This document shows positions 35,732-58,899 of a stretch of DNA of 64,000 nt, piece by piece. Each line of letters opens with the position of its first letter. The first letter of the stretch is position 1. Source of the DNA: a virus. Location of the stretch: IMG/VR virus record IMGVR_UViG_3300028423_001110, positions 1-64,000 of that record. One strand, given 5' to 3'. Under the pieces are notes generated by a model. That model saw only the letters and a program-made list of their open reading frames with translations, was not told the origin of the DNA and ran no database searches. The position numbers were made by a program, and so were the translations under genes.

Positions 35732-35734
35732 ATA
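35727..35734 (+). promoter_or_regulatory. Perfect late promoter TATAAATA
   Basis: An exact match to the T4 late consensus, 27 bases before the ATG at 35762 and overlapping the stop codon of the fibre gene. AAGGAT lies between as a ribosome site. This is the best late box in the window. Confidence 0.65.
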
Positions 35735-35761
35735 AACTATGTACTTTATAAGGATGTATAA

Positions 35762-36798: not shown

Positions 36799-37155
36799 AT
36801 GGATGAACGTTTAGAAAAAGCTCTTGAATTTTCCAATTATATGGTTACTCTTAACAATCAAAAGAGAATTATCAAAGAACAATTTCGAGAAAACATTATT
36901 TTTTATTTTCAAGGCGGCCAATTTACAGTAAACAAAGAACTTATAACATTTGTTAATATGCTTGTAGAAAAAGAAAATACAGAAGATATTGTTTTAATTG
37001 ATGATAATGAAACACCGATTATGGTAGACGATCTTAAAAACTTTTTAGATAACATAATTAATTGTTATTTTTCTGCAGCAAATCAATATCATTCTGATTA
37101 TAAAATTCTTTCTGCTAGTCGGTCAATTGAAAAATTAGTTGATTATGAAAAGTAA
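36799..37155 (+). CDS. Small conserved phage protein, function unknown
   Basis: A 118-residue, largely helical, acidic protein. Segments ALEFSNYMVTLNNQKRIIKEQ, IIFYFQGGQFTVNKELITFVN and ILIDDNETPIMVDDLKNF-like (VLIDDNETPIMVDDLKNF) are visible, and proteins of this look recur in marine T4-like phages. There is no catalytic or DNA-binding motif. It has a strong host-type promoter of its own, so it is probably expressed early or middle, unlike the neighbouring tail genes. The following glycosyltransferase gene overlaps its end by 11 bases. Confidence 0.6.
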   Translation: MDERLEKALEFSNYMVTLNNQKRIIKEQFRENIIFYFQGGQFTVNKELITFVNMLVEKENTEDIVLIDDNETPIMVDDLKNFLDNIINCYFSAANQYHSDYKILSASRSIEKLVDYEK

Positions 37156-38032
37156 AGGTATTGTTTTATTTGCAAGAAATAATTCTCAAGTTGATTACAT
37201 TAAACAAGCTTATTTTTTAGCAAAAACAGCTAAAGAAATTTTAAAACTTCCTACAACTATTGTTACAGATAGTCCCGAGTTTTTAAGATTTGAATTTCCT
37301 GACTGGAAAAAAGTATTCGATAGTGTAGTATCAATGGTTTGGAAAGAAGAAGAACTTGCAGAAAATACAGTTCTTTTTAGGAATGAGTATCATAATTTAA
37401 AAGAATACCACGACGGGTCGCTTGTTTCTAAGAAACTTGACTGGAAAAATGAAATGAGAACAGTGGCATATGATGTTTCTCCTTACGACGAAACTCTGGT
37501 ATTAGATACCGACGTTGTTATCTGTAATGATATTTTTCTTAAATGTTTTGAACAAAAACACGATTTACTGCTATATAGTAATGCAACAGAACTTACAGAT
37601 ATCGACAGAGGCGACGAATTTAAAAGAATTTCAGACACATCAGTAAATTTCTACTGGGCTACGTGTATTTTCTTTAGAAAAACCAACAAAAATAAAATAT
37701 TTTTTGATCTAGTTAAACACATCCAAGAAAATTGGAAACATTATAACAATATTTTTCAAATAAATTCACCATATTATCGAAATGATTATGCTTTTTCTAT
37801 TGCTATTCATATAATGAACGGATATCAAACAGGTGATTTTGCAAAAGAAATGCCTGGAATTTTATATTTTGTGACAGACAGGAGTATATTATGGGAAATT
37901 GACAGTAAATCATTGTTAATTTTACTTGAAAAAGAGCACTTTGACGGTGAATATACATTAATAAGAACCAATTATGCCAATGTTCATGTGATGAACAAGT
38001 TTAGTTTAAATAGGTGCATCGATGAGCAATAA
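37145..38032 (+). CDS. GT-A-type glycosyltransferase (GT8-like)
   Basis: A nucleotide-sugar transferase of GT-A fold. I use the ATG at 37145, giving MKSKGIVLFARNN; a TTG two codons earlier is unlikely. The metal/nucleotide site is the DxD in ETLVLDTDVVI near residue 120. The upstream block YDVSPYDETLVLDTDV and the later NFYWATCIFFRK and NDYAFSIAIHI follow the order seen in glycogenin/LgtC-like enzymes. At 295 residues it has the usual length. It overlaps both neighbours slightly and is followed by a related transferase. Donor and acceptor are unknown. Confidence 0.65.
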   Translation: MKSKGIVLFARNNSQVDYIKQAYFLAKTAKEILKLPTTIVTDSPEFLRFEFPDWKKVFDSVVSMVWKEEELAENTVLFRNEYHNLKEYHDGSLVSKKLDWKNEMRTVAYDVSPYDETLVLDTDVVICNDIFLKCFEQKHDLLLYSNATELTDIDRGDEFKRISDTSVNFYWATCIFFRKTNKNKIFFDLVKHIQENWKHYNNIFQINSPYYRNDYAFSIAIHIMNGYQTGDFAKEMPGILYFVTDRSILWEIDSKSLLILLEKEHFDGEYTLIRTNYANVHVMNKFSLNRCIDEQ

Positions 38033-38852
38033 AGGATTTGTAATATTTGCGGAAGGACCTGACTATGTTGAGCAAGCATATTTGTGTGCTATGAGCATAA
38101 TTGCCTCAAATAACAGTTTTCCTGTTTCTTTAATTACTTCAGGAAATATAAAAGACAAGTATAAATGGGTTTTCCATAAAATTATCGAAATTCCTTGGTA
38201 TAAACCCGCAGTAACTCAATTAAAAACTGAAAATCGATGGAAAATTTATCATGCAAGTCCGTACGAACAAACAATTGTCTTAGATAGCGACACTTTAGTT
38301 CTCCAAAATTTAGATTATTTTTGGGATTTTTTGAAAAATTATAATTTGTACTTTCCGGCAAAGGTATTTACCTATCGAAAAGAAGTAATCGAAGATGATT
38401 ATTATAGAAAAGCATTTACAAATAATAATTTACCAAGCTTATATAATGCTATACACTATTTTAAAAAGGGATCTTTTGCTCATAATTTTTACAAGTGGGT
38501 AGAAATAGTTACAAATAACTGGGAGTTGTTTTATGGACGGTTTTGTTCTGAAAATTATCCAAAAGAACCCAGCATGGATATAACTGTTTCAATTGTTTCT
38601 AAGGTTTTAGACTGCGATACAGAAATTTCAAATCAAAAATTTGATTTACCCCAACTTGTTCATATGAAACCGTTGGTACAAAAATGGAAGAACCCGACTT
38701 CAAAGTGGCAAGATCGTGTAGGAACTTATTTAACACCTGATCTTAAGTTAAAAATTGGAAATCATCTACAGAACACAGTCTTTCATTATACCGAAAACGA
38801 TTTTGTTACTAAAAATATAATAGGAAAGTTCGAAAAATGTCTGAAAAAATGA
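38022..38852 (+). CDS. GT-A-type glycosyltransferase (GT8-like), second copy
   Basis: A 276-residue paralogue of the preceding gene. It begins SNKGFVIFAEGPDYVEQAYLC, parallel to the GIVLFARNNSQVDYIKQAYFL start of its neighbour, and carries the DxD in YEQTIVLDSDTLVL near residue 90. The C-terminal FHYTENDF is a His-containing end typical of GT8 enzymes. The start ATG at 38022 overlaps the previous stop. It forms with its neighbour a tandem pair, probably adding two different sugars to one acceptor or acting as a heteromer; both are guesses. Confidence 0.62.
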   Translation: MSNKGFVIFAEGPDYVEQAYLCAMSIIASNNSFPVSLITSGNIKDKYKWVFHKIIEIPWYKPAVTQLKTENRWKIYHASPYEQTIVLDSDTLVLQNLDYFWDFLKNYNLYFPAKVFTYRKEVIEDDYYRKAFTNNNLPSLYNAIHYFKKGSFAHNFYKWVEIVTNNWELFYGRFCSENYPKEPSMDITVSIVSKVLDCDTEISNQKFDLPQLVHMKPLVQKWKNPTSKWQDRVGTYLTPDLKLKIGNHLQNTVFHYTENDFVTKNIIGKFEKCLKK

Positions 38853-39412
38853 TGTACGTAATGTTTGAAGAAGGTTCTGGAAAGATAACAGGCATTACTC
38901 CGCGAAAAGACGTAAAGAACAGTATTCCTCTGCCTTTATCGAAGGCTATTGGGTTTTTAGAAGGAACCGAACGACGAAAAAATTATAGAGTAGAATATAA
39001 TCCTAAAGTTAAAAACCTAGAACTAGTTAACATTAGACAAGAACGATTTGATGGTAGATCGGTTAGCGATTTTATATACGAAATTCCAGAAGAAAGCGTT
39101 GAAAATGTTGATATAATGATAGAACAAGACATTTTACAAAAATGCTGGAGAATCAAGATCGGTCATAATCTTAAAAAAAATTTAAAAAATAAAGGAGTAA
39201 ATTTATCCAGTGTTTTGAGTTTTTCTATTACTGAAAAGCACGATCCTAATATTCTTTTTAAAACTTTAGATGTTAATTTTTCAAAACTTATGAAAAAAAA
39301 CTACGAAATTTTTCCTTTCGAATCAGAATTCGAATTTTGCGATATTCCAATAAGTATTTTTACTGCTAGAAAGTTTGATACATATCAATTTAAAAGGATT
39401 TTTAATGAATAA
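38837..39412 (+). CDS. Conserved marine-phage hypothetical protein
   Basis: A 191-residue protein beginning MSEKMMYVMFEEGSGKITGIT. Stretches such as ITGITPRKDVKNSI, KNYRVEYNPKVKNLELVNI and FTARKFDTYQFKRIF resemble a protein I recall from several marine myoviruses, always without function. The look is beta-rich with no catalytic signature. It is translationally coupled on both sides (15-base overlap with the transferase before, 8 bases with the next). Since it sits between glycosyltransferase genes it may be an accessory or structural partner of them. Confidence 0.55.
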   Translation: MSEKMMYVMFEEGSGKITGITPRKDVKNSIPLPLSKAIGFLEGTERRKNYRVEYNPKVKNLELVNIRQERFDGRSVSDFIYEIPEESVENVDIMIEQDILQKCWRIKIGHNLKKNLKNKGVNLSSVLSFSITEKHDPNILFKTLDVNFSKLMKKNYEIFPFESEFEFCDIPISIFTARKFDTYQFKRIFNE

Positions 39413-40307
39413 TACGATAAAAATAGTCGAACAAGATATAATATTTTTATCATACGACGAGCCAAATGCTGAAAAAAATTTTGCAGACCTTTGCCAAAAA
39501 ATTCCTTGGGCAAAAAGAGTTCATGGAGTAAAAGGATCAGACGCTGCACATAAAGCCTGTGCAGATTTATCTGAAACAGAGAATTTTGTTACAGTCGACG
39601 GCGATAATGTAATTGATCCAGATTTTCTTAACTTAAAAATTGACGTAGATGAACTTGGGTTAACAAAAGAACATGTATTTTCTTGGTGCGGAAAGATACA
39701 CGTGAATGGGTTAATGTACGGCAACGGCGGCCTTAAATTATGGAACAAAGATTTTGTAACAAACATGAAAACCCATGAAAATTCAGATAAAAATGACACA
39801 CCGAGTTTAGTTGAATTTTGTTTTGATAACAGATACTATCAATTTAATGAAAATTATTCTACTTCATTTACAAACGAGTCTCCTTTTCAAGCTTGGAGAG
39901 CGGGCTTTAGAGAAGGGGTAAAAATGAGCCTCGATCAAGGGAAAAAAGTAAGTTATATTAACTCAATTTGGTGGCAGAATTACGAACGTCTTCTTATTTG
40001 GTCTTCGATAGGTGCAGACGTAAAAAATGGCTTATGGAGCATTTATGGCGCTAGAGAAGGTTGTTATCTCACAAATTGCACAGACTGGGATTACACACAA
40101 GTACGAGATTTTGAATATTTAACAGAAAAATGGAACGAAAATTACCCAAAAATTTCTGAATCAGAGCTAAGAGATAAAATCGAAAGCGTGGGAGAAAAGC
40201 TTTCTAAAGAACTAAATTTAAATATCGAAACACTTACAGAAAAAGGTAGTAAATTTTTTAAAAAAGTTTATCATAATACACCTAGAATAATAAAGGCAGC
40301 AAAATGA
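39405..40307 (+). CDS. Putative GT-A-like transferase with VDGD motif
   Basis: I start at the ATG at 39405 (MNNTIKIVEQ), preceded by AAAAGGA; an upstream in-frame ATG at 39375 lies inside the previous gene. The 300-residue protein reads IIFLSYDEPNAEKNF, then AKRVHGVKGSDAAHKAC, then FVTVDGDNVID, a nucleotide-sugar-binding order with the acidic VDGD near residue 67 replacing the classic DxD. YGNGGLKLW and SPFQAWRAGFREGVK follow. The same domain forms the C-terminal 226 residues of the protein at 49975-51858. This looks like a small transferase family common in marine phages; the reaction is not known. Confidence 0.55.
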   Translation: MNNTIKIVEQDIIFLSYDEPNAEKNFADLCQKIPWAKRVHGVKGSDAAHKACADLSETENFVTVDGDNVIDPDFLNLKIDVDELGLTKEHVFSWCGKIHVNGLMYGNGGLKLWNKDFVTNMKTHENSDKNDTPSLVEFCFDNRYYQFNENYSTSFTNESPFQAWRAGFREGVKMSLDQGKKVSYINSIWWQNYERLLIWSSIGADVKNGLWSIYGAREGCYLTNCTDWDYTQVRDFEYLTEKWNENYPKISESELRDKIESVGEKLSKELNLNIETLTEKGSKFFKKVYHNTPRIIKAAK

Positions 40308-41704
40308 ATCAAGAATTAGAAAGAATTAAACAAGTTATGCCGATTACCGATTCTGAGATTTCTCCGACATTTTGTATGGCAAAATGGCATCATACTACAA
40401 TATATTTGCAAACAGGAGAAACTCATAGTTGTTATCATCCTTCTCCTCATGAAATACCATTAGAAGAAATTAAAGAAAATCCGTCGGCGCTGCATAATAC
40501 TAAAGAGAAAAAAATCGAAAGGCAGAAAATGCTCGACGGAAAGCAGCCGTCTGGTTGTAATTACTGTTGGAAGATTGAAGCAATGGGAAAAGATTATGTT
40601 TCAGATCGACATATTAAAACTGCTTCGATTTATACGCCAGAAAGATTAGACGAAATCAAGAATGGCGGAGCTGAATATAATATTAATCCAGAATATATTG
40701 AAATATCGTTTTCAAATGAGTGCAATTTTAAATGCGGGTATTGCCATCCTAAGGCCAGTTCTCGTTATTGGAAAGAAATCGATAGCAAAGGACCATATAA
40801 AGAATCAACAGAACACAGATTAGATATTGATTGGTTTAAAGTTTATCACAGAGAAGAAGAAAATCCCTATGTAAAAGCATGGTGGGAATGGTGGCCTGAA
40901 GTTTCAAAAACTCTTAATATTCTTCGTATTACAGGCGGCGAACCCCTTATGCATAAAAGCACTTGGGACTTATTTGATAGATTAGAAGAAGATCCCAAGC
41001 CTCATATTCAGATTGAAATAAATTCTAATCTTGGTGTAAAGACAAAACTTGTTGAAAAATTAGTAGAAAGAATAAATCATTTAAAGAATACTGGAAAAAT
41101 TAAGAGTTTTAAACTTTATACATCAATTGATACTTGGACTAACAGAGCCGAGTATGCAAGGCACGGGCTTGATTTAAATTTATGGGAAAAAAATCTAGAT
41201 TATTATCTTACAAAAACTAACATGCCTGTTACATTTATGATTACCTTTAATATTTTCTGTGTTACAAGTTTTAACACATTATTAGAGAAAATTTTAGAAT
41301 GGAGAAAAAAATATAATACGGATAAAAATCAAGGTCAGTGGCAGCTAGTAAGATTTGATACTCCTCACCTAAAAGAACCTACAATATTTGATATGAATAT
41401 TTTACCAAAAGAAGAATTCATGCCATATATGCATTCGCATCTAGATTTTATCCAAAAAAATGTTGATAATTCCGATAGAACAAAATTTACTGATCTTGAA
41501 TATGAAAAATTTAAAAGAGTTGTAGATTACATGGATTCAACACACTACAGTGAAAATAAACTTACTATCGCTAGAAAGAACTTTAATGCATGGTTTTCAG
41601 AGCACGATAAAAGAAGGAATACTTGTCTTACTGACACGTTTCCTGAATTAAAACCATTTTGGAATCTCTGTGCAGATCTTAATCAAAAAGAGCGTGTGGA
41701 ATAG
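40304..41704 (+). CDS. Radical SAM protein with N-terminal twitch-type cysteine cluster
   Basis: Radical SAM enzymes use a 4Fe-4S cluster and SAM to start radical chemistry. The canonical CxxxCxxC is CNFKCGYC at residues 140-147, followed by the SAM-binding GGEP in RITGGEPLMHK. Unusually, cysteines that suggest an additional iron-sulfur site come first: FCMAKWHH (C24), HSCYHP (C43), GCNYCWK (C85, C88). This arrangement is known from twitch-domain radical SAM proteins in marine phages and sugar clusters. At 466 residues it is full length. ATGA overlap with the previous gene implies coupling. The 3' end overlaps the convergent SGNH gene by 26 bases. The substrate is unknown; sugar or peptide modification is likely from context. 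Confidence 0.82.
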   Translation: MNQELERIKQVMPITDSEISPTFCMAKWHHTTIYLQTGETHSCYHPSPHEIPLEEIKENPSALHNTKEKKIERQKMLDGKQPSGCNYCWKIEAMGKDYVSDRHIKTASIYTPERLDEIKNGGAEYNINPEYIEISFSNECNFKCGYCHPKASSRYWKEIDSKGPYKESTEHRLDIDWFKVYHREEENPYVKAWWEWWPEVSKTLNILRITGGEPLMHKSTWDLFDRLEEDPKPHIQIEINSNLGVKTKLVEKLVERINHLKNTGKIKSFKLYTSIDTWTNRAEYARHGLDLNLWEKNLDYYLTKTNMPVTFMITFNIFCVTSFNTLLEKILEWRKKYNTDKNQGQWQLVRFDTPHLKEPTIFDMNILPKEEFMPYMHSHLDFIQKNVDNSDRTKFTDLEYEKFKRVVDYMDSTHYSENKLTIARKNFNAWFSEHDKRRNTCLTDTFPELKPFWNLCADLNQKERVE

Positions 41705-42527
41705 GTTCGCCAGGATTAAATTTATAATTTTTTATCATTTGATCAACCCAATCGTTAGGAAAATCATGTAAGCCGTGAGGTTTGGAAGTTTTTGTATACT
41801 CGTGTTGCACATATTCTTTCCAGTCGTTGTATAAATGCCTTACTGCAGTTTTTGTTTTAATAGAAATCCACGGTGCAATGGTTTTTTCTAGATATCTTAG
41901 GTGTTCAAAAAGGGTTGGATGCCCGTCTGAATAGTTAGGATGTATTTCTTTCCAGTCTCTTTTCCATTTGTTTTTCATATCACCGTTCCATAAAACATCA
42001 TAAAAACTAGGCGTCATATACGATAATGTATCTTCATATAGGTTTGTAATTCTTTTAATTTTTTTATCAATTTTAGACTTGGTTTCCCACTGATTTAGTG
42101 TTTTTTTAATATCGCACATTTGTAAAAAGTAAAAATTTGCTCCTTTATGCTCTAACAAATTTTTTACAAAATGCATATAAGAAAAATCTCTAAGAGAAAA
42201 GTGTATTTCGTTTGCATAATTTTCTACAAAACTATGATCATAAACTGGTTGAGAATATATATTACCAGGAGTAACCCAACTGTTATCTATCCATCTATCT
42301 TCTCGAGAAATATTTGTCCAACAAACAATAATTAAATCTTTACTATTAAAATTAAAATATGAATCTGCTTGAGATATCATATTAGAAATATAAGTATTAC
42401 CTGCTCCGCTTTTACCTAGATTGTAAAATTCACAATCAAGGTCTGCTCCTAAAATATTCGCCCAGGTGCCCCATTTATAGTTTGTAAAAGAGCATCCGAA
42501 TGCGAAAAATCGATTTATGTCTTGCAT
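41679..42527 (-). CDS. SGNH/GDSL-type hydrolase-like protein
   Basis: A 282-residue protein with the family's start block FAFGCSFTNY (nucleophile Ser near residue 13) and the C-terminal SDGHPTLFEHLRYL, giving the Asp-x-His pair expected of block V. The Gly/Asn oxyanion blocks (NLGKSGAGNTYI) are also visible. Such enzymes deacetylate or transacetylate glycans and lipids. It is the last gene of a minus-strand operon that begins with the aminotransferase at 46911. A second SGNH-like gene lies at 49181, in the opposite orientation. No signal peptide, so it likely acts inside the infected cell. Confidence 0.65.
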   Translation of the reverse strand: MQDINRFFAFGCSFTNYKWGTWANILGADLDCEFYNLGKSGAGNTYISNMISQADSYFNFNSKDLIIVCWTNISREDRWIDNSWVTPGNIYSQPVYDHSFVENYANEIHFSLRDFSYMHFVKNLLEHKGANFYFLQMCDIKKTLNQWETKSKIDKKIKRITNLYEDTLSYMTPSFYDVLWNGDMKNKWKRDWKEIHPNYSDGHPTLFEHLRYLEKTIAPWISIKTKTAVRHLYNDWKEYVQHEYTKTSKPHGLHDFPNDWVDQMIKNYKFNPGEPIPHALFD

Positions 42528-42543
42528 TTTTTAACTTTTAAAC

Positions 42544-43722
42544 TTAGATATTAAGTAACTGCTTTTCTAGTTTTTTTATTGATTTTTTATCAGACGAAGT
42601 TGACATAAGAACTTTGTAATTATGTATAAGTTTTTCTTTCAATTGCCACCTCCACCTTATTTTTTCGTCTCGAGTCATTTTATTTAGAATACTAACGGTA
42701 TTGGATATGTTTGTTAATAACGCTGAATATCTGTCTGCAGGATCTTCGATAGTATCAAAACTATAATCAAATATTTCGTCGTATAACTGATAACCATATT
42801 CTTGCAATCTTTTATTACAATGCTGCTGTCCCCAAATTAGAAAAGGTTGCATATGGGCAATTGGTCTAAATGTTTTCTCAGAGAAAAATAAACAATGTCC
42901 GTTACAATTATCAGTTTCGGTTTCGTTTACAATCTGAAATAAAGTTCTATAATGCAAGTGACTATGTATTTTAAGAGCATGATTTGTAACAAAATCTTCA
43001 GTGTCGGCAATCAGCGGAAGAGTTTCGCTCCATTCTAATAATTTTGTTACAGACAATTTGTAGGTTTTTCTTAAAGACTCCAATTCAAAAGGTGTCATCT
43101 TATCATGACTTAAAATTCCTTTTGATAATAGATTGTTTTCCCAAAGTTTATAACAAGCATATGATCTATCTCGTCTATTTTTTCGACTTAGGCTTAGAAA
43201 ATATTTTGTTTTAAAATACCGAAAATTTTCTTTTTTTGTGTTTTTAAAAACAATTTCAGGACAGGAATCTTTGAAATGATTTTCGATCATGTGTGTTAGA
43301 GCAAATTTAAAATGCATAAAAACATAAACATTCAAACTTTGTTTAATTTTATTTTTCTTATTATATATTTTTATATTTTTATAATCCATAACATTACTAG
43401 AAACAAACAAAACTTTTTTTGGCGAAACATTATATTTCTCGCAGTTGTAATATAACATACTAAAAAAATTTTTATTAAATGGACAATATCCCTCTACACT
43501 AACATCAAACAAAAAAAAGACATGTGAATTATTTTTGATAGAATCTAATGCATTCTTTGTTAAATAGCAAAAAATGTCTGTATCAGAACTATAAGGTACA
43601 TATTCAAATTTTGCATGCACAAAGGAAATTCCAGACTCTTGTAAAGTTTGTTTAAAGAATACAGAAAAATTACTATCAGGAATTTGTTTTATTAGTTTGT
43701 TTGTTATTATTTGTTCTTCCAT
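42544..43722 (-). CDS. Putative glycosyltransferase of the SEKTFRP family
   Basis: A 392-residue protein, closest relative in the window of the one at 3068-4303. Shared features are FLFDVSVEGYCPF, LYYNCEKYNVSPKKV, YFLSLSRKNRRDRS, IVNETETDN, FFSEKTFRPIAHMQPFLIWG and LYDEIFDYSFD. The arrangement suggests a GT-B-like transferase with donor-site residues in the SEKTFRP block, an inference. It sits in the minus-strand operon behind a more distant family member, overlapping it by 47 bases. The two nearly equal proteins, 40 kb apart, suggest movement or duplication of whole cassettes within the genome. Confidence 0.5.
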   Translation of the reverse strand: MEEQIITNKLIKQIPDSNFSVFFKQTLQESGISFVHAKFEYVPYSSDTDIFCYLTKNALDSIKNNSHVFFLFDVSVEGYCPFNKNFFSMLYYNCEKYNVSPKKVLFVSSNVMDYKNIKIYNKKNKIKQSLNVYVFMHFKFALTHMIENHFKDSCPEIVFKNTKKENFRYFKTKYFLSLSRKNRRDRSYACYKLWENNLLSKGILSHDKMTPFELESLRKTYKLSVTKLLEWSETLPLIADTEDFVTNHALKIHSHLHYRTLFQIVNETETDNCNGHCLFFSEKTFRPIAHMQPFLIWGQQHCNKRLQEYGYQLYDEIFDYSFDTIEDPADRYSALLTNISNTVSILNKMTRDEKIRWRWQLKEKLIHNYKVLMSTSSDKKSIKKLEKQLLNI

Positions 43723-44893
43723 AAATTGTTTTATTCCTGTAAGGTAAGGTTTTTAGAATTTTAGAATTATGTTCTAAAATAGGCTGCATATCTTTATACA
43801 TTAATTCTAAATCTTGTATTTTTAAGCTTCCAATATAGTCTATTATTTCAAAAATTTGTGTTAATCTTTTTTCATGATTAATTTCAGTATCATAACTTTC
43901 GTCCCAAAATTTAGAAAAGGTCTTAAATCCGACTTTTTTAATATATTCTAATGTAAAAGGAGGACCAGCAATAACAAAAGGTGTTTTAAAAGCAACAGCA
44001 TCTAGAGTCTTTTCGCTGTAATTTGCACTAGGTTGTGCAAAGCGTGTTTCATTTACAATACAGCAAAATATTTGATTCATTTTTTCGATCCAACTTTGCG
44101 TTAAAATTCCGGTAAATTGAGGTACATCAGGTCGATAAAAAGCATATACGTCTTTTATGTTAATTGATTCTTGAATATCTATATAGTAGTTGTTTTCGTT
44201 TAATAAACTATTACCTTTTTCTAACATTTCTTTTTTGGGAAGATTATCTAACCATGATATATCGTTTAGAGTTAATAACGGAGATTTATAGAACCAACTA
44301 TAATGACCTTCAAAGTTAGCTAAGTAGCTCATAACTAAATGCCTATGCAGAGTATAACGAGCATTTGCACATAAAAAAGGTTTTTTTAGATCTTTTTGTA
44401 TCTCTTGATCATTGACTTTTCGTCCGTCTGTTACACTACTTACATATATATCTCGTGTTTTAAGAACACAATTTGTGTATAAAGAATGAAAATGTTCAGG
44501 TACATTATAATCACATAAATTTACTTCAAAAAAACATCCAACTTCTTCTGCAAAATTCTGAATAGAATCAAGTTCGTCTGCTCTTAAAGAAGGATCATTA
44601 TTAAAAATATGACTAAATTCACTATAATAACCTAGATTTTTTCTATTGTTTAACGAATAAGATATTGGTTCATATAAAAAAAATTCTATTTTTTGATTTT
44701 TAAGTTGTTTTTTTATTTTTGGATCCCGCAAAAATCTTGAAAAGTTTATTTTGTTTGTTCCTGTAAATAAAAAAACAGGCTCTTTTATTTTAGACAAAAA
44801 AGTTTCAAAAAACGTTAATTTATATGTATTAATTCTTTTGGGAGATTCTTTAGTTGGAATGTTTTTCCAAAATAATCCATGCATATTATTCAT
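43676..44893 (-). CDS. Putative glycosyltransferase, distant SEKTFRP-family member
   Basis: A 405-residue protein. The C-terminal third has the family pattern IVNETRFAQPSANYSEKTLDAV, TPFVIAGPPFTLEYIKKVGF and FSKFWDESYD. The N-terminal half differs from the other members (VFLFTGTNKINFSRFLRDP) and may bind another acceptor. The last residues are Asn/Thr/Lys-rich. It overlaps the 150-residue gene upstream by 8 bases and the next transferase by 47 bases, so all belong to one transcript. The enzymatic role is inferred from this context and the shared block only. Confidence 0.45.
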   Translation of the reverse strand: MNNMHGLFWKNIPTKESPKRINTYKLTFFETFLSKIKEPVFLFTGTNKINFSRFLRDPKIKKQLKNQKIEFFLYEPISYSLNNRKNLGYYSEFSHIFNNDPSLRADELDSIQNFAEEVGCFFEVNLCDYNVPEHFHSLYTNCVLKTRDIYVSSVTDGRKVNDQEIQKDLKKPFLCANARYTLHRHLVMSYLANFEGHYSWFYKSPLLTLNDISWLDNLPKKEMLEKGNSLLNENNYYIDIQESINIKDVYAFYRPDVPQFTGILTQSWIEKMNQIFCCIVNETRFAQPSANYSEKTLDAVAFKTPFVIAGPPFTLEYIKKVGFKTFSKFWDESYDTEINHEKRLTQIFEIIDYIGSLKIQDLELMYKDMQPILEHNSKILKTLPYRNKTIYGRTNNNKQTNKTNS

Positions 44894-45338
44894 CTCTAAT
44901 TCCTAATATTTCTAAAATATACATGTTGTCCGACCCTAGGTTTGCCTGTAAAAAATTTTCATCATAGGTCCAAACAGCATAGTCTCCCTTTTTATAACAG
45001 GTTAGCGGTTTATTTTGTATTTCGAAATAATGTCCTGATTTCCACTCGTCTAAAAATAAGCAAGCTTGCCAAATTCTACTTTTATTTAACTTTGTTTTTT
45101 CTGAAAAATTTTCAAAAACATTTTTATTTGAACAAACTTTTGAATCTTTTTTAAATTTAAGAAACCTAAACTCGCAATTAATCAAACCTAAAATATTAGA
45201 AATTTCTAACAACCAATTGAAGTCCTTGCCTTCAGCCTCGTAAATCTCAATAAGCGGATCAAAGGTAGAAATAACATAATTAAAGTATTCGTGTTCATCT
45301 GTCCAAATATCTTCTGTATTGCCAATGAGAAGAGCCAT
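44886..45338 (-). CDS. Degenerate paralogue of the dioxygenase/cupin-like protein
   Basis: A 150-residue protein whose C-terminal half aligns with the protein at 1674-2180: RIWQACLFLDEWKSGHYFEIQ against RIMLFLEDWVPGQ, then CYKKGDYAVWTYDENF against WKSGDWYGWKNDDIH, then MYILEILGI against YAIQITGI. The HxD pair and distal His of the other copy are not found at the aligned places, so metal-dependent catalysis is unlikely. It may be a non-catalytic binding partner or a protein undergoing decay, though the frame is intact. Three bases separate it from the amidinotransferase upstream in the operon. Confidence 0.5.
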   Translation of the reverse strand: MALLIGNTEDIWTDEHEYFNYVISTFDPLIEIYEAEGKDFNWLLEISNILGLINCEFRFLKFKKDSKVCSNKNVFENFSEKTKLNKSRIWQACLFLDEWKSGHYFEIQNKPLTCYKKGDYAVWTYDENFLQANLGSDNMYILEILGIRDE

Positions 45339-45341
45339 ATT

Positions 45342-46307
45342 TTATTCTCTTATAAGGTCTAAAGTAACGCAATGAAATCCTCCACCTAGGGTTCTTTGGT
45401 GTCGAAGAGGTAACATCATACAATCTATTTTATACTGTTCAAGTTTTTTACGTAACTCGTGCTGATTTTTTTCTAGTACTACTAGATTTTCATTTATACT
45501 TAGTAAATTCATTCCGACCCAAATACTAGCATTATTATAATTTTTGTAAAATCCTGTATCAAACATTTCTGGAGAATAAATTATATCCCAATCACAAAAT
45601 GGTTTAGGTAACTGATTCTTGTTTTTAATTCTTGAAGGATTTGCTAATAATAACCCTTCTCGCAAAAAACAAATAGTCGAGTCTATATGCATATAGCTAT
45701 ATACATTTTCAAGTTTATGTACTTTAATGTTATCACCTAAAATTGCTTGAAGCAGATCGGCCCCTTTTCTATTTCCGCTATTCGAAACTAGATATAATAA
45801 ATCATTATTTGCTCTAATTACATTTGCAGCATCAAATGCCGGTACGGTTTCGTTTAAAGCTAAAATTTCAAGATTATTAACACATTCGAGATTATACAAA
45901 GAGTCGTCAATTTCTAAATTAATATCTATGATGTTGTTATCTAAATGTTTTTGAAAAGAACGCCAGTCAGAATTTCTAACTCTAATTGGCATAGGTGTTG
46001 CTATTGCTAAATTGTTTTGAATTAAAACATTATCTCTCGGGCAGTAATTATAGTATTCGCAATTTGTAGCATCGGGCCTTACTACTTCTATTTTCTCCTT
46101 TTTTAGATTATCGCAAAAAATTTCTAGATCTTCATTTGTTTCGTCTATTACTTTTTTGGGATAAGAACCAACAGGTATAGTTGAAGGATCACTGTTATCG
46201 GCATAGTTAACAGTTCGTATACTTTTGTCTATCTTTGGAATTTTAGCATTATCGGCTATACCTACAATTACTTTTTTTAATTGAGTCCATTCGTTGTTTG
46301 ACTGCAT
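45342..46307 (-). CDS. Amidinotransferase (AGAT/StrB-type)
   Basis: Enzymes of this family move the amidino group of arginine onto an amine, making guanidino compounds such as guanidinoacetate or the guanidino cyclitols of streptomycin. The catalytic triad is visible: Cys in the signature GGGFHC near residue 313, His in SYMHIDS near residue 207, and an Asp in the CPRD block near 107. These match glycine and inosamine-phosphate amidinotransferases; the length of 321 residues is near the family's 350. The HCVTLDL after the Cys is normal for the family. It lies seven bases behind a DegT-type aminotransferase gene, which could supply the amine acceptor. The substrate is otherwise unknown. Family call firm. 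Confidence 0.85.
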   Translation of the reverse strand: MQSNNEWTQLKKVIVGIADNAKIPKIDKSIRTVNYADNSDPSTIPVGSYPKKVIDETNEDLEIFCDNLKKEKIEVVRPDATNCEYYNYCPRDNVLIQNNLAIATPMPIRVRNSDWRSFQKHLDNNIIDINLEIDDSLYNLECVNNLEILALNETVPAFDAANVIRANNDLLYLVSNSGNRKGADLLQAILGDNIKVHKLENVYSYMHIDSTICFLREGLLLANPSRIKNKNQLPKPFCDWDIIYSPEMFDTGFYKNYNNASIWVGMNLLSINENLVVLEKNQHELRKKLEQYKIDCMMLPLRHQRTLGGGFHCVTLDLIRE

Positions 46308-46314
46308 TATTATC

Positions 46315-46911
46315 TCACTGAAAATCGAAAACTTTCATTTGTCTTAAATCAGGATAGTCGTTATAATTCCATATCCTTGGTGTAGTATTTTTTGCTTCAT
46401 TTAATTTTTCTAGGCCAAGCGATGCTGTTTCAGGTGTCATATAATAATGATACCCGATTGATTCGATATTTTGAAACGCCCAGGGAGTATTTAACATGCG
46501 CCCGTCGTAAACCATTTTCTTTAATATTTTGTATGCATTTTTATCATCGCACAAGATCATTCCTCCTCGACCTAAACTTAGGTGTTTTTGAAATTGAAAG
46601 CTAAGGCACATAAATGTTCCTTTAATATAGCCGTCTTTTTCGAAAAATGTTGCAGCGTCAATAATCGAAGTTTTATTTAGGAAATAATATTTTTGCCATT
46701 TTTCTGTATTAAAATTCCATTGGCAATTTATTTTCATTAATGTAAACGGAATGCTTATATATGTGTTACAAGGACATTCTACATAAGTTGGATTCAGATA
46801 CCTTAAGCAGAGTTCGATAGAATGTGTGCAGCTATCAGTTGCTATTGCATACGGCGATCCGAAGTAACTAGAAATTTCTCCTTCAAATTCTTCAACAGTA
46901 TTAAAATCCAT
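46315..46911 (-). CDS. Shortened DegT/DnrJ/EryC1/StrS-type aminotransferase
   Basis: PLP enzymes of this family aminate keto sugars. I use the ATG at 46911 (MDFNTVEEFEGE), with CTGGAG as ribosome site; an ATG at 46995 would overlap the divergent gene. The Ser/Thr phosphate-binding block ATDSCTHSIEL (residues about 23-33), the Asp of SIIDAATFF (for the pyridine N), the Schiff-base Lys in SFQFQKHLSLGRGGMI, and the later GYHYYMTPETASLGLEKL all fit the core of the family. At 198 residues it is about half the usual length: the linker is compressed and the C-terminal domain missing. It starts the minus-strand operon with the amidinotransferase. Activity of so short a form is uncertain. Confidence 0.72.
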   Translation of the reverse strand: MDFNTVEEFEGEISSYFGSPYAIATDSCTHSIELCLRYLNPTYVECPCNTYISIPFTLMKINCQWNFNTEKWQKYYFLNKTSIIDAATFFEKDGYIKGTFMCLSFQFQKHLSLGRGGMILCDDKNAYKILKKMVYDGRMLNTPWAFQNIESIGYHYYMTPETASLGLEKLNEAKNTTPRIWNYNDYPDLRQMKVFDFQ

Positions 46912-46951
46912 AAATTCAACTCCAGTATAAGTATATATGATTTTTAGGTGT

Positions 46952-46959
46952 AATAAATA
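46952..46959 (+). promoter_or_regulatory. Late-promoter-like box upstream of 46979 gene
   Basis: AATAAATA, seven of eight to the late consensus, 20 bases before the ATG at 46979, in the divergent gap to the aminotransferase gene. In such AT-rich sequence, chance matches are likely, so placement ahead of a gene start is the main support. Confidence 0.4.
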
Positions 46960-46978
46960 GTCAATTACGAGTAAGTTA

Positions 46979-47968
46979 ATGAAGAGTAAGAACATCTGTA
47001 CTGATTATTTTTCGAATACTGATCAAGACCTTGTAGATTCTCTAAATGAATCAGACGATTTTGATACAGTCAATATTTTTTGCGCTCAAGAATTTGAAGT
47101 ATTTTATAAATGGAAAGGTAGAGAAAGCTATAAATTATTAGAAAAATTAATTCGCAACGGCGTAACTGTTAATATACTGTTTAATGGATTTAACACAGAA
47201 AAGCATAAATCATATGTTGACGTGCCACCTGGAACAATTTTGCACTATTGGCCGGAATATTTGTTATATCATAGTTTTATTATAGCAAAAGAATCACCTT
47301 TTCCTAAACCAAAAAAGATAAAAAAAATTTTTCTTTCTTATAATAGAGCACCACATAATCATCGTTGCCTTTTAATGGATTTATTGGCTAAAAGAAATTT
47401 ATTAAAAGAAGGAAAATGCTCGTGGTTACACCCTCATCCTAATTACGAATTTAAATATTGGAAACAAGAAAAGCTAACTTTAGATATTAAACGTCCTAAA
47501 GACAGAGCATTTCAGTGGCTAGGCAGACCTATTGAATTATCTAATACTTTTGTACAATTAGTACCAGAAACAAGTATCGAAATACAGTCATTAACTGAAA
47601 AAACTTATCTTCAAATCTTGTTTAAAAGACCTTTTTTAATTTTTGGAGCTTCTGGTATTCACCGTAAATTATCTGAATTAGGTTTCGAAATGTATGATGA
47701 AATTTTTGATTATAGTTTTGACGAAATAGAAGATCTAGAAGAAAGAGGAGAGAAGCTATTAGATAATTTGGAAAATCTAAAAGGAAAAAATTTAAATAAA
47801 TTGCGAAAAAAACTTCTTCCTAAGATCGAAAGGAATTTTAATAATGCAATGAAAATTATAAATAGCTGGAATAATGTTCCTGAAATATTAAAAAATTATT
47901 ATAATACAAATGAAACAGTTCGTATATACGAACATGTTTTTAAACATCTAAACGGAGTACAAAAATGA
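46979..47968 (+). CDS. Putative glycosyltransferase, SEKTFRP family, short member
   Basis: A 329-residue protein. The C-terminal half keeps the family shape: FVQLVPETSIEIQSLTEKTYLQILFKR-type block (TEKTY replacing SEKTF), PFLIFGASGIHRKLSELGF and MYDEIFDYSFDEIEDL. FLSYNRAPHNHRCLLMDLL near residue 120 parallels the SLSRKNRR block of other members. The N-terminal third (TDYFSNTDQDLVDSLNE) is unique. It is coupled by an ATGA overlap to the dehydrogenase downstream. Transferase activity is inferred. Confidence 0.47.
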   Translation: MKSKNICTDYFSNTDQDLVDSLNESDDFDTVNIFCAQEFEVFYKWKGRESYKLLEKLIRNGVTVNILFNGFNTEKHKSYVDVPPGTILHYWPEYLLYHSFIIAKESPFPKPKKIKKIFLSYNRAPHNHRCLLMDLLAKRNLLKEGKCSWLHPHPNYEFKYWKQEKLTLDIKRPKDRAFQWLGRPIELSNTFVQLVPETSIEIQSLTEKTYLQILFKRPFLIFGASGIHRKLSELGFEMYDEIFDYSFDEIEDLEERGEKLLDNLENLKGKNLNKLRKKLLPKIERNFNNAMKIINSWNNVPEILKNYYNTNETVRIYEHVFKHLNGVQK

Positions 47969-49188
47969 AAGTGGGTTTTATAGGATTAGGCAAGCTAGGT
48001 ATGACTTGCGCAGAAACAATTGCAAAAAAAGAAATTTCTGTAACCGGCTTTGATATTGAGAATGTACAAAGTGATTTTGTTGACATTAAAAATAATATTA
48101 AAGACACAGTAAGTGATCGAGATATTGTTTTTATTGCTGTGCCTACTCCGCACGATCCTGAATACGACGGTAAAACTCCTATTGCAAATCTTTCTCCTAA
48201 AGATTTCAATTATTCTATTGTAAAAAACGTGCTGTCTGAAGCCGAACAATACATGACAAAAAATCAGTTGTTGGTATTGATTTCTACAGTTTTGCCAGGA
48301 ACTACTAGAAGAGAATTTGTCTCCTTGGTTAACAATACTAATTTTATCTATAATCCGTATTTAATAGCTATGGGTACGGTTGAGTACGATATGCTTAATC
48401 CAGAAATGATAATGATAGGCACTGACGATGGGTCAAACACCGGTAATGCACGAAAATTAATTAATTTTTATGAAAACATAATGGAAAACAATCCTAGATT
48501 TGTAATCGGTACCTGGGACGAATGTGAATGTATTAAAGTTTTTTACAACACTTTTATTTCTGCAAAAGTTGGTTTAGTAAACATGATACAAGATGTTGCT
48601 CAAAAACAAGGTAATATAAATGTTGATATAGTTACTACTGCACTAGCTCAGTCTACTATGAGAATTATGAGTCCGCAATATATGACAGCAGGCATGGGCG
48701 ACGGCGGATCATGTCATCCTAGAGACAACATTGCATTAAGATATCTAGCTAAAGAACTAGATCTTGGATATGATTTATTTGATTCTATAATGCAGGCAAG
48801 AGAAATACAGGCAGAAAATTTAGCCAAAGAATTAGTTAAACATGCTAATGAAACCAACATGCCGATATATATTCATGGTAAAGCCTATAAACCTAAAGTA
48901 CCATATATTGATGGAAGTTACAGTTTGTTAGTTGGATATTATGTGAAAGAAATGGGTTTCGAACCTATTTACATAGATCCTTATACAGGCGATGATTATC
49001 AGCCAACCAATCCAGGTGTATTTTTAATGGCGCATTCTGCAAGTATTACTTATGATTATACCAAAGACAAAGCAAAAGACGAAATTTATTGTGTTATTCC
49101 TCCTAGTAGCATTATTATAGATCCTTGGAGGAAAATAACAAGCTCGGTTAGTCGAGTAATACACTACGGTAACACTAGAAATGTTTGA
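47965..49188 (+). CDS. Nucleotide-sugar dehydrogenase, UDP-glucose/GDP-mannose family
   Basis: A full-length (407-residue) relative of the shortened enzyme at 895-1668. The Rossmann motif GFIGLGKLG opens the protein; VFIAVPTPHD, LISTVLPGTTRRE, YNPYLIAMGTVEYD and FYNTFISAKVG follow the family order. The catalytic Cys is in GDGGSCHPRDN near residue 250. The C-terminal region (GKAYKPKVPYIDGSYS, then IYIDPYTGDDY) is the UDP-binding domain that the other copy lacks. It would make a sugar acid from a nucleotide sugar. It overlaps both neighbours, so it is part of a plus-strand module of the island. Confidence 0.87.
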   Translation: MKVGFIGLGKLGMTCAETIAKKEISVTGFDIENVQSDFVDIKNNIKDTVSDRDIVFIAVPTPHDPEYDGKTPIANLSPKDFNYSIVKNVLSEAEQYMTKNQLLVLISTVLPGTTRREFVSLVNNTNFIYNPYLIAMGTVEYDMLNPEMIMIGTDDGSNTGNARKLINFYENIMENNPRFVIGTWDECECIKVFYNTFISAKVGLVNMIQDVAQKQGNINVDIVTTALAQSTMRIMSPQYMTAGMGDGGSCHPRDNIALRYLAKELDLGYDLFDSIMQAREIQAENLAKELVKHANETNMPIYIHGKAYKPKVPYIDGSYSLLVGYYVKEMGFEPIYIDPYTGDDYQPTNPGVFLMAHSASITYDYTKDKAKDEIYCVIPPSSIIIDPWRKITSSVSRVIHYGNTRNV

Positions 49189-49974: not shown

Positions 49975-51174
49975 ATGTACGACTTATTTTTCATTTCAGA
50001 AGAAAAAACACAAGAATGGTTCAATTTAAAAAGTCTTTACCCAACAGCAAAACATTCAAAAACTATACTCGATGCTTCTAAAAAAAGTTTTACTTCTCAT
50101 TTTTGGTGTGTTTTCTCAGATTTAGACCTAGACAAAACCTTTGACTTTTCGTTTATTCCAGATAATTGGAGCAAAGATTACATCCATGTTTTTAGAAATA
50201 AAAATTATTTTGACGGAGTGTGTTTAATTCCTAAAAATAATCTTCCGTCAGAAAAAGAAGCAAATTTTCGTTTTTTTACCAATAAAAAAGAAGTTGATAT
50301 AAATGCATCAACACCAAAAAAATATGAAATATTTTATATAAACACTTACGAAGATTATCTTAATGCTGCGGAAAATTGTTTAACAACCTTTTTTTGGGCA
50401 GTTCCAGACGACATTTCTATAAATTTTAATTTTGATTATCAAGCTGCACATTGGGAAAAGTATCCGCACGTTTTTAAAAATAACAGCTATTATGACGGAT
50501 TGATGCTTTTTCCAAAAGATAAACTTGTAACAGAAAAAGAATTTAATTATCGATTTTTTATCAAAAAGAAAGAAGTCGATCTTATGCTATCAACACCAAA
50601 ACCTTATGATAAATTTTTTATTGATTCCTATGAAGAATATCTTAACGCAAATAAAACATCAAAAAGTAACTTCTTTTGGGTTATACCTAGCACCGTAGAG
50701 TTACACAAAGATTTTGATTTTAATTATCAAGCTGCTTATTGGGAAAAATTCCCGCATGTTTTTTTAAACGGTTCTTATTTCGATGGTGTAACTTTACATA
50801 ACAAAGACAATATCGTATCTAAAAAAGAATTTGAATTTAAATTTTTTGTAAAAAGAAAAGAAATAGACATAGTTGCGTCGTTTCCGAAAAAATATGACTA
50901 TTTTGATGTTAGCAATTATAATGATTATTTAAAAGCAACAGAAGAAGCAAAAACCAACTTTTTCTGGTTTGTTCCAGAAGATGTCAGTACAAGTTTTAAT
51001 TTTGAATATCAAGCAGCCGAATGGGAAAAATATACACACGTTTTTTTAAATAATCAATTTTATGACGGTATCTGTCTTTTTAATAAAGATGAAAAAGTGT
51101 CAAAAAAAGAATTTGATCATAGATTTTTTATGAAGAAAAAAGAAGTAGATATAAATGCTTCAGATCCTAGAAGA
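49975..51174 (+). repeat. Tandem protein-coding repeats, four units
   Basis: Units run from residues 1-116, 117-210, 211-306 and 307-400 (third boundaries at 50323, 50605 and 50893), and the intact domain starts at 51175. The later three are nearly equal in length (94-96 codons). They share the unit end KKxEVDxxxSxPKx and the internal YQAAxWEK block, and resemble one another more than they resemble the intact domain. Confidence 0.75.
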
Positions 51175-51858
51175 TTCGATATTGTCTTTATTTCGTATAA
51201 CGAACCTAATGCAGATTACAACTACAAACAGTTACTTAAAATTGCACCAAAAGCAAAAAGAATACAAAATGTAAAAGGAATACACAAGGCACATATCGAA
51301 GCAGCAAAACTTGTTAAAACTGAAATGTTCTGGATCGTAGACGGAGATGCTTTGATGCAAGAAAATTTTAAATTTGAATATCAAGTTCCTAGATGGGATC
51401 AAGATGTTGTGCATGTATGGAGATCAAAAAACCCGGTAAATAATCTAAGTTACGGATATGGTGGAGTTAAATTACTTCCGACTAAATTAACATTAAATAT
51501 GTCGCAGGACAATCTTGATATGACAACAAGTATTAGCAATAAGTTTAAAACGGTAGACGAAATATCTAATAAAACAATGTTTAATACTAGTAGTTTTAGT
51601 GCATGGAAGTCTGGATTTAGAGAATGTGTAAAGCTAGCAAGCGGAATTATAAAAAAATCCTGTGAAGAAGAAACACAGGAAAGATTAGATACTTGGTGTA
51701 ATGTAGGAGTTAATATAAAATTCGGCATCGATACAATTAGAGGCGCGGTTGACGGAAGAGAATACGGAATTAAAAACAAAGATGATAAAATTGCTTTAGA
51801 GAAAATAAATGACTTCAACTGGTTATACAGAAGATTTTCAAAAAATCCCATTCGATAA
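49975..51858 (+). CDS. Multi-repeat protein: four degenerate copies and one intact VDGD domain
   Basis: A 627-residue protein. Its last 226 residues (from FDIVFISYNEPNADYN) are closely like the 39405-40307 protein, with MFWIVDGDALMQ, YGYGGVKLLP and FSAWKSGFRECVK. Ahead of it lie four degenerate units of 94-116 residues, each with F(F)W, then an acidic or altered motif in place of VDGD (FSDL, PDD, PST, PED), then FDYQAAHWEKYPHVF-like and YYDGLMLFPKD-like blocks, and ending in KKxEVDxxAS-P. The copies lack most of the putative catalytic part. They may bind substrate, act as a ruler, or mediate assembly. The next radical SAM gene overlaps its end by 50 bases. Confidence 0.55.
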   Translation: MYDLFFISEEKTQEWFNLKSLYPTAKHSKTILDASKKSFTSHFWCVFSDLDLDKTFDFSFIPDNWSKDYIHVFRNKNYFDGVCLIPKNNLPSEKEANFRFFTNKKEVDINASTPKKYEIFYINTYEDYLNAAENCLTTFFWAVPDDISINFNFDYQAAHWEKYPHVFKNNSYYDGLMLFPKDKLVTEKEFNYRFFIKKKEVDLMLSTPKPYDKFFIDSYEEYLNANKTSKSNFFWVIPSTVELHKDFDFNYQAAYWEKFPHVFLNGSYFDGVTLHNKDNIVSKKEFEFKFFVKRKEIDIVASFPKKYDYFDVSNYNDYLKATEEAKTNFFWFVPEDVSTSFNFEYQAAEWEKYTHVFLNNQFYDGICLFNKDEKVSKKEFDHRFFMKKKEVDINASDPRRFDIVFISYNEPNADYNYKQLLKIAPKAKRIQNVKGIHKAHIEAAKLVKTEMFWIVDGDALMQENFKFEYQVPRWDQDVVHVWRSKNPVNNLSYGYGGVKLLPTKLTLNMSQDNLDMTTSISNKFKTVDEISNKTMFNTSSFSAWKSGFRECVKLASGIIKKSCEEETQERLDTWCNVGVNIKFGIDTIRGAVDGREYGIKNKDDKIALEKINDFNWLYRRFSKNPIR

Positions 51859-56991: not shown

Positions 56992-58899
56992 TTAATGTAA
57001 GTCTCTCCAGTCAACTCCGTCATACCCTTGAAATTTTGGAAAACCAGTACTGTCATCGTGTCCTGCTAGAAAAATCATCATTCCTGCTTCTGGATTAGGA
57101 ATTGCATTATCTCTCTCGGTTTCGTTTGCATATACCGCAGGTTTTACTGCACCTGGAGATTCAAATGTACCTTCTCCTTTAAATTTAAAGTGACTTTGAC
57201 TTGTATTATTTCCAACACCAATTATACAATCTGATTTTGGATTTTGCGCAGTGTAGTCTGCGTCTGAAGTAAGTTGCGTTACTAATGCAGCTGTTGTTTT
57301 GTAAGATCCGTCTGCATAAGCCTGAATTCGAAATCCAGATAGTAGTTCATTTTTATCTACATTAGCCGGACTGTCAATAGTACCGTTTGATACATTTATT
57401 TGCACGTACGGTATGTCAGCACCTCTAACAGTTTTAAAATCTGCTATTTTTTTGTTTAATGTTTTAACTTCTAAAGTATCTGTATCAATTGGTCCTACTA
57501 AATATCCACTTAATCCGTCAACTAGTAGTTCTGAACTATCTGAGAAAACTGAACCAACTACATCTCCTGTAATTGCATCTGTTTCTATACTTGACACGTA
57601 TAAACGATCAAGATCAGAGTCGAACAAAATTGTGCTATCTTCTTTGAAGATTTTATCTGAAATTAAGAAACTTGTTTGTATAAAACTATCAACTTCTAGT
57701 TCTTCAAAGTATCCTCGTCTCCAAACGGCACTTACTGCTCCGAGGTCATATAATGCATCTTCGTTTGGAATTAATGAGCTAGCAACAGTTCCTTGTGACA
57801 AGTCAAGTGTTCCGCTTATTTCGGCTGTATTTGAAATATCTATTTTACTTGCAATTAATTCATCGTTGAGGTCGTTATACAGAAGACTGCTGTCTTCTTT
57901 AAAAATTTTGTTTGTTATAACACTATTCGAAACTATAGTTTCTATATAACCAGTATCCCAACCTTGTCCTGAAAAACCTAGATCATACTGTTTATCTAAA
58001 GTCGGAGAAAGAGGTCCTTTGATCTCCATGCCTTCGATTTTAAGTACTCCAAATACTTCAAGGTCGGTAATTGAAATTTGATCATTGTCAGAATTATAAA
58101 GTAGATTACTTTCATTTTTACTAATTGTGTCTACTCGAAGGTCGCTAGCAGTAATATTCTGTTCAATATTAATATCCGAAGCTGTAATTCCCGGAACTAC
58201 TAATGTTTCGTAAACATCAAGATTTTGAAAAAATCCTCCTGCCCAAATATTTTCATCTGTGCCAACTGTATATTGGTTAATAGCGGAAGGCACTAGAGGC
58301 CCTGTTATTTTTGCTTCAGTAACATCTAACTCTGTACCTAGAATAATATTTTCTAAATTTAGTTCGTCGTTAGCAGAGTCATATAATACCGTGCTATTTT
58401 CTTTTATGATTCTTGTAGTTTGTAGATCAACTGTTTCTAACTTTTCAGATACAGATATGTTTTCTGTTATGATACCTGGCGAAACTACGCTTTCTTCTAC
58501 ATCGATATTTTGAACAAAAAGGTTTGACCAAGCAGTTTCAACATCTCCTAAAGAATATATATTGTTTCCAGAAGGAATTAAATCACTATCAATAACACCT
58601 TCGATACTAATGTTGTCTACTTCATCGTCGCCTAGATTAATACTTCCTGTAGCAGTTATGGTTCCGTCTATATTAATATTGCCTGAACCGATAATATCGT
58701 TACCGTTAAGATCTAAATTCCCTCCAAGAGCAGGAGTTGTATCGTCCACAACTACAGTATCGAGGATAGAACGACCGCCAAGGGTTGTTCCGTCACCTAC
58801 AAACAGTTTTCCTGTGTCTGTTACATAGAGTGGTTCCCCTAATTTAGGGGTTATTGTTAATCTTTCAGCATCAGTGCCTCGTCTAAACAAAAAAGACAT
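56992..58899 (-). CDS. Repeat-rich tail fibre/structural protein with Mtd-like N-terminus
   Basis: A 635-residue protein. The N-terminus (FRRGTDAERLTITPKLGEPL, then LFVGDGTTLGG, residues 5-42) is the phage fibre N-terminal module also found in the major tropism determinant and hyaluronate-lyase-like fibres. From about residue 107 four units repeat, opening with LIPSGNNIYSLG, LVPSAINQYTVG, LSPTLDKQYDLG and LIPNEDALYDLG (residues 107, 202, 297, 376), each followed by a W..G/LF block and LLYDSANDEL-type ends. The last 150 residues (FKTVRGADIPYVQINVS, then FPKFQGYDGVDWRDLH) may form the receptor-binding tip. A late-type box precedes it. It is away from the main fibre block. Confidence 0.75.
   Translation of the reverse strand: MSFLFRRGTDAERLTITPKLGEPLYVTDTGKLFVGDGTTLGGRSILDTVVVDDTTPALGGNLDLNGNDIIGSGNINIDGTITATGSINLGDDEVDNISIEGVIDSDLIPSGNNIYSLGDVETAWSNLFVQNIDVEESVVSPGIITENISVSEKLETVDLQTTRIIKENSTVLYDSANDELNLENIILGTELDVTEAKITGPLVPSAINQYTVGTDENIWAGGFFQNLDVYETLVVPGITASDINIEQNITASDLRVDTISKNESNLLYNSDNDQISITDLEVFGVLKIEGMEIKGPLSPTLDKQYDLGFSGQGWDTGYIETIVSNSVITNKIFKEDSSLLYNDLNDELIASKIDISNTAEISGTLDLSQGTVASSLIPNEDALYDLGAVSAVWRRGYFEELEVDSFIQTSFLISDKIFKEDSTILFDSDLDRLYVSSIETDAITGDVVGSVFSDSSELLVDGLSGYLVGPIDTDTLEVKTLNKKIADFKTVRGADIPYVQINVSNGTIDSPANVDKNELLSGFRIQAYADGSYKTTAALVTQLTSDADYTAQNPKSDCIIGVGNNTSQSHFKFKGEGTFESPGAVKPAVYANETERDNAIPNPEAGMMIFLAGHDDSTGFPKFQGYDGVDWRDLH

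Follow-up and report, generated by a model that had tools for sequence, protein, structure and literature searches.

A phage glycosyltransferase-like protein family with a variable array of pseudo-catalytic units ahead of one intact GT-A-type domain

Inactive glycosyltransferases that partner active ones are already known. In the GtfA-GtfB (Gtf1-Gtf2) system for glycosylation of serine-rich-repeat adhesins, the active GtfA is paired with GtfB, which reportedly acts as a chaperone and binds the adhesin that serves as acceptor (PMC6973325). The phage proteins described here may be likened to this pair, by mechanism alone, as an active glycosyltransferase with a related acceptor-binding partner, but GtfB is a whole separate protein present in fixed number, whereas the half-domains of the phage proteins are arrayed in tandem within one chain. 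E. coli K4CP and human CHSY3-CHPF, both of which were among our structural matches, also have more than one GT-A domain per chain or complex, although these are two full-length domains instead of 1 to 16 shortened units. The PBCV-1 capsid glycosyltransferase (2p72, 2p73, and 2p6w) is likewise a small viral GT-A enzyme and modifies a virion protein; however, it is repeat-free, comes from a eukaryotic algal virus, and is ~13 to 16% identical over the aligned part.

With respect to gene setting, the closest parallel is the host-recognition cluster found in pelagimyophages and cyanomyophages, where glycosyltransferase and radical SAM genes also lie beside T4-like tail-fibre genes. In the available text of the paper describing this cluster (PMC7029224), the pelagimyophage glycosyltransferases are proposed to act in the synthesis of LPS or surface sugars, GT8 is the commonest family, and pseudo-catalytic repeat arrays are unmentioned.

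Here, we analyzed a gene in a 64,000-nucleotide stretch of viral DNA (the window; positions 1 to 64,000 of IMG/VR record IMGVR_UViG_3300028423_001110). Two proteins of uncultured Caudovirales phages, A0A6J5LK21 (804 aa) and A0A6J5L5L5 (1076 aa), matched the model of the whole window protein in Foldseek searches (E values of 5e-39 and 7e-33, respectively); both are predicted structures deposited as "Uncharacterized protein." A literature search covering mostly journals open without subscription found no published description of such pseudo-glycosyltransferase arrays. To our knowledge, a same-chain tandem array of truncated pseudo-glycosyltransferases that ranges from 1 to 16 copies and changes by single units is undescribed.

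Four pseudo-catalytic units and one intact domain in a single gene

The gene occupies positions 49975 to 51858 of the + strand, starts with ATG, has no internal stops, and encodes 627 aa. Its N-terminal 400 residues consist of four units, each ~94 to 115 aa long, while the final 227 residues form one intact domain. The initial annotation had described the protein as four pseudo-catalytic repeats before one intact transferase-like domain, and the open reading frame (ORF), its DNA repeats, profile homology, and predicted fold all confirmed that the gene encodes four such units and one intact GT-A-type domain. At the DNA level, a 182-nt repeat occurs four times within the ORF at spacings of 282, 288, and 282 nt.

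Unit 1 (aa 1 to 115; 49975 to 50319, +), the cap type, carries FSDL in place of VDGD and retains helix A and strand 2, both of which are missing from units 2 to 4. The DGD of the intact domain is replaced by PDD in unit 2 (aa 116 to 210; 50320 to 50604, +), by PST in unit 3 (aa 211 to 305; 50605 to 50889, +), and by PED in unit 4, the last unit (aa 306 to 400; 50890 to 51174, +). All four substitutions had been correctly placed in the initial annotation. The C-terminal GT-A-type glycosyltransferase domain (aa 401 to 627; 51175 to 51855, +) keeps an intact DGD, its DxD motif, at aa 456 to 458 (51340 to 51348, +). The separate copy of this domain that had been noted at 39405 is also real: a stand-alone paralogue (designated c1 here) spans 39405 to 40307 (+) and shares 36% identity with the C-terminal domain.

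To assess homology between the units and the intact domain, we ran a profile of stand-alone catalytic domains, which excluded every repeat protein, using hhalign. In these profile-profile comparisons, the catalytic-domain profile matched the first units with an E value of 1.9e-17 and the later units with an E value of 3.6e-8. These matches are far above chance, and the repeat units share ancestry with the catalytic domain. The idea that the units copy the transferase core thus holds as far as homology is concerned, but the copy is incomplete: the match of each unit is confined to the nucleotide-binding half of the catalytic domain (its first ~135 residues), and units 2 to 4 lack the two elements mentioned above.

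A full-length AlphaFold2 model built with 35 relatives had a pLDDT of 90.5 and a pTM of 0.67, so the relative placement of the units is less certain than their individual folds. The units are predicted to fold like the core of the intact domain: within this model, the strands and helices of each unit follow one another in the same order as in the first ~135 residues of that domain. A two-unit, repeat-only model reached a pLDDT of 95.3, and its unit 1 aligned with GT-A and cytidylyltransferase structures with Z scores of ~8 over 107 to 117 residues. When this model was searched with Foldseek, no match fell below an E value of 0.001; the top hit was the PBCV-1 capsid glycosyltransferase (E value of 5e-3).

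By structure comparison of its model, the C-terminal domain has a GT-A fold. It aligned with human B4GALNT1 over 135 residues (Z score of 11.6, root mean square deviation of 2.7) and with further GT-A enzymes at Z scores of 9.4 to 11; its fold resembles those of polysaccharide-acting enzymes such as K4 chondroitin polymerase and WrtF. Since IspD-type cytidylyltransferases, which have the same Rossmann-like core, score similarly, the fold alone is no proof of activity. The intact domain matched Pfam Glycos_transf_2 (PF00535) weakly (E value of 0.037), with its 14.4 bits falling below the 23.3-bit cutoff and placing it outside that family, and neither NCBIfam nor PHROGs assigned a family to the window protein. 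Matches to Cu-oxidase, excisionase, and clostripain were weak and were dismissed as the identity of the protein.

Motif loss, selection, and change in unit number

Across the family, the metal- and donor-binding DxD motif (DGD or DAD) is present in 196 of the 197 catalytic domains but has been lost from 341 of the 346 repeat units, with the remaining 5 units retaining it. The SYxE, KGIHxAH, NPxN, and YGxGG-K motifs, which are conserved in the catalytic domains, are likewise gone from the units. Given their homology to the presumably active glycosyltransferase domain and their loss of catalytic residues, the units are putative pseudo-glycosyltransferases.

The units nevertheless have near-invariant residues of their own (H, G, K, E, KKE, and S). 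By alignment column, these include E148 (99%), H116 (99%), G133 (97%), L136 (97%), K168 (95%), S181 (93%), E169 (90%), and K139 (88%); the catalytic domains either lack or do not fix E148, K168, S181, E169, and K139. In ten close pairs of equal length, the median omega was ~0.12 for the repeats and 0.09 for the catalytic domain, which indicates that the repeats are under purifying selection rather than decaying.

The number of units varies widely. Scans of viral contigs from metagenomes identified at least 106 distinct complete relatives (units plus catalytic domain) with 1 to 16 units. Among the best-scoring matches listed, which include near relatives and are therefore not population frequencies, 14 proteins had one unit, 15 had two, 26 had three, 30 had four, 12 had five, 5 had six, 2 had seven, 1 had eight, and 1 had sixteen. 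The catalytic domain was at the C-terminal end in all 106 complete proteins listed, and no additional domain was found in any of them. Neither repeats predicted to fold unlike the C-terminal domain nor a constant copy number combined with an unrelated fold, either of which would have counted against the initial annotation, was observed.

A difference of one unit can be seen even where the catalytic domains are 95 to 98% identical, and at 85 to 95% identity most pairs differ in copy number. In three pairs, the difference is exactly one unit (107 aa in L108/L115, 100 aa in L107/L109, and 107 aa in L026/L013), and the surrounding DNA is colinear at 86 to 91% identity. In comparisons across proteins, the first units group with one another, as for the most part do the last units, while the units that multiply are the internal ones. 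In the window, the closest matches of units 2 and 3 are unit 4 of the same protein (59% identity for unit 2) or the last units of relatives with two repeats, which suggests that the four-unit array probably arose from a two-unit form; the last unit of one such relative (L004) is 71% identical to window unit 4.

We also found seven distinct repeat-only ORFs. In L102, L137, and the L037 group, the repeat-only ORF overlaps the next ORF, which is in another frame and begins inside a unit. Arrays split in this way (L102:6395-8669, L137:3943-6217, L037:7920-10170, and L041:2123-4373) have a downstream ORF with an ATG start that encodes the last unit together with the catalytic domain; they could reflect either a frameshift or fission of the gene with translation of the two parts coupled. 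In L022, a repeat-only ORF lies ahead of a complete one. A 540-aa protein encoded at L080:758-2377 lacks a catalytic domain; it contains four good repeat units and a further weak match, and its N-terminal ~110 aa are unlike the repeats.

The initial annotation had also raised the possibility that the array serves as a length ruler on a repeated substrate such as a fibre shaft. This suggestion gained no clear support, given the one-unit changes between proteins with nearly identical catalytic domains and the lack of a clear relation between copy number and the length of the neighboring fibre-like genes. Copy number did not clearly track the length of the fibre-like gene c5 (rho of -0.20, P = 0.17, n = 47). 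Although it correlated with the length of c6 (rho of 0.60, P = 0.011, n = 17), we do not count this correlation as support for a ruler because the sequences are related and their lengths span just 500 to 614 aa. Overall, the earlier interpretation was partly supported.

The gene cassette and the phages that carry it

In the window, the cassette follows the fibre genes (34244 to 36748), one of which encodes a tail-fibre-like protein (c6; 34244 to 35731, +) that contains a Peptidase_G2 domain and matches fibre-like PHROGs. Its first gene after the fibre genes encodes a conserved 118-aa protein (c4; 36799 to 37155, +), followed by genes for two glycosyltransferase-like proteins (c3; 37139 to 38852, +), the second of which weakly matches Mannosyl_trans3 (E value of 8e-4), a conserved 191-aa protein (c2; 38837 to 39412, +), and the stand-alone paralogue c1. 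Profile comparison did not significantly relate the GT8-like c3 neighbors to the catalytic domain. The order c4-c3-c3-c2-c1-repeat gene was found in 41 of 78 loci; in 54 of 78 relatives, c1 is the immediate upstream neighbor of the repeat gene. Where the contig extends that far, the fibre-like genes c6 and c5 lie ahead of the cassette. On the downstream side, the repeat gene is most often flanked by radical SAM genes.

The window departs from the usual arrangement in that radical SAM and other genes fill 9.7 kb between the stand-alone paralogue and the repeat gene. A Twitch-domain radical SAM protein (NF033640, E value of 1e-93) is encoded at 40304 to 41704, and further radical SAM genes lie at 51809, 52806, and 55353. 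By eye, the region from 41679 to 49188 contains amidinotransferase-like (45342), DegT-type aminotransferase-like (46315), and sugar-nucleotide dehydrogenase-like (47965) genes. At the opposite end of this sugar-gene region, positions 56992 to 58899 of the - strand encode a protein of 635 aa in which the N-terminal domain of the major tropism determinant (Mtd_N) was detected with an E value of 2e-9.

The window is part of a 66.8-kb virus record, and the closest counterparts of its baseplate wedge protein are those of jumbo T4-like phages such as Atu_ph07 (37%). Since an array relative is also found on a 353-kb contig (L173), the window likely derives from a jumbo phage. Adjoining the wedge gene is an ORF of 5055 aa (14445 to 29612), which occupies the position of the large structural protein of Atu_ph07 and is VrlC-like by position. 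At the equivalent site in Atu_ph07, an isolate jumbo phage, the c6 fibre gene (E value of 3.7e-74) and radical SAM genes are present, but neither the glycosyltransferase catalytic domain nor the repeats were found there, implying that the cassette is an accessory module beside the fibre genes.

No isolate relative was found among 50,697 phage records by tblastn with the protein, the stand-alone copy, or a hand-written consensus as the query. Among 84,980 prokaryote genomes, there was one relative (L162; 34% identity), on a contig of a marine gammaproteobacterial metagenome-assembled genome, and this contig may be phage sequence. The Photo_RC gene, a photosynthetic gene that would point to a cyanophage host, was absent from 19 records, several of which are fragments.

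Possible roles of the array

We propose, with a probability of about 0.5, that these proteins are active phage glycosyltransferases with a multivalent acceptor-binding arm built from degenerate nucleotide-binding halves of the enzyme itself. Duplication of the domain's own nucleotide-binding half would have produced a tandem array of pseudo-glycosyltransferase half-domains, and the duplicated halves would then have lost donor and metal binding. The array would grip the acceptor at several points while the single C-terminal active site modifies it repeatedly, and changes in unit number might tune reach or avidity as the acceptor or the host changes. The acceptor would probably be a repetitive or already glycosylated virion part, most likely a tail fibre. 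Although we infer the sugar-transfer activity, the acceptor, and binding by the array, a role as a binding arm is consistent with the newly acquired invariant residues, with purifying selection on the repeats, and with the existence of repeat-only proteins.

The putative link to tail fibres is contextual and comes from the position of the cassette after tail-fibre genes in most loci; the 9.7 kb that lie between the repeat gene and the other cassette genes in the window are a counterpoint. The neighboring genes also fit with the synthesis of LPS or other surface sugars, and the chief rival to our proposal is that the same enzyme and arm act on host LPS or another surface glycan, altering the receptor against other phages or against re-adsorption of progeny. 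We regard this as a tentative possibility. The glycosyltransferases of the pelagimyophage host-recognition cluster have been assigned such a role by context (available text of PMC7029224), and the likeness of the catalytic fold to polysaccharide-acting enzymes is in keeping with it. On the other hand, the cassette holds a fixed order behind the tail-fibre genes, and family scans detected no membrane-targeting domain in the array proteins, which have no extra domain of any kind. Lytic phages also have little time available to remodel LPS.

The array might further be a novel type of modular recognition solenoid, assembled from the degenerate half of an enzyme, in which three unit types, A, B, and C, would bind distinct portions of a repetitive acceptor; by re-ordering and re-counting the units, phages would keep up with changes in that acceptor. 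We consider this doubtful. The types stay distinct over wide divergence, and the 16-unit array (L020:3747-9272) has a block-wise type order, ACCCACCCACCACCAC, followed by the catalytic domain.

Alternatively, the array could be mainly a structural spacer or oligomerization scaffold, the conserved residues of which hold the fold or neighboring units together while copy number drifts near-neutrally by recombination. Loosely constrained length would predict the differences in copy number seen between most pairs even at 85 to 95% catalytic-domain identity, the units are without added domains, and the conserved polar residues could stabilize the unit fold instead of contacting a ligand. Nevertheless, that the most strongly conserved residues are polar (H, K, E, and KKE) makes a mere spacer less likely. 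Moreover, E148, H116, L136, G133, and K168 are still conserved at 94 to 100% in one-repeat proteins, which have no second unit to pack on, whereas K139 (67%) and R152 (56%) are less conserved in these proteins; packing between repeats is thus not the whole reason for the conservation. Given that the separation of the unit types also argues against near-neutral drift, we consider a spacer unlikely.

It is highly improbable that the arrays are particle-borne receptor-binding modules with an incidental catalytic domain, since, even though the gene adjoins tail-fibre genes and its copy number changes fast, as in host-recognition genes, nearly all C-terminal domains retain the DxD motif and other catalytic residues despite the absence of nucleotide sugars outside the cell, and no fibre, baseplate-anchoring, or trimerization domains were found in the array proteins.

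Proteins with one intact domain and different numbers of dead copies of it, present in close relatives, provide a natural series for studying pseudoenzyme function. They also point to a widespread, uncultured phage group that probably glycosylates something linked to host recognition.
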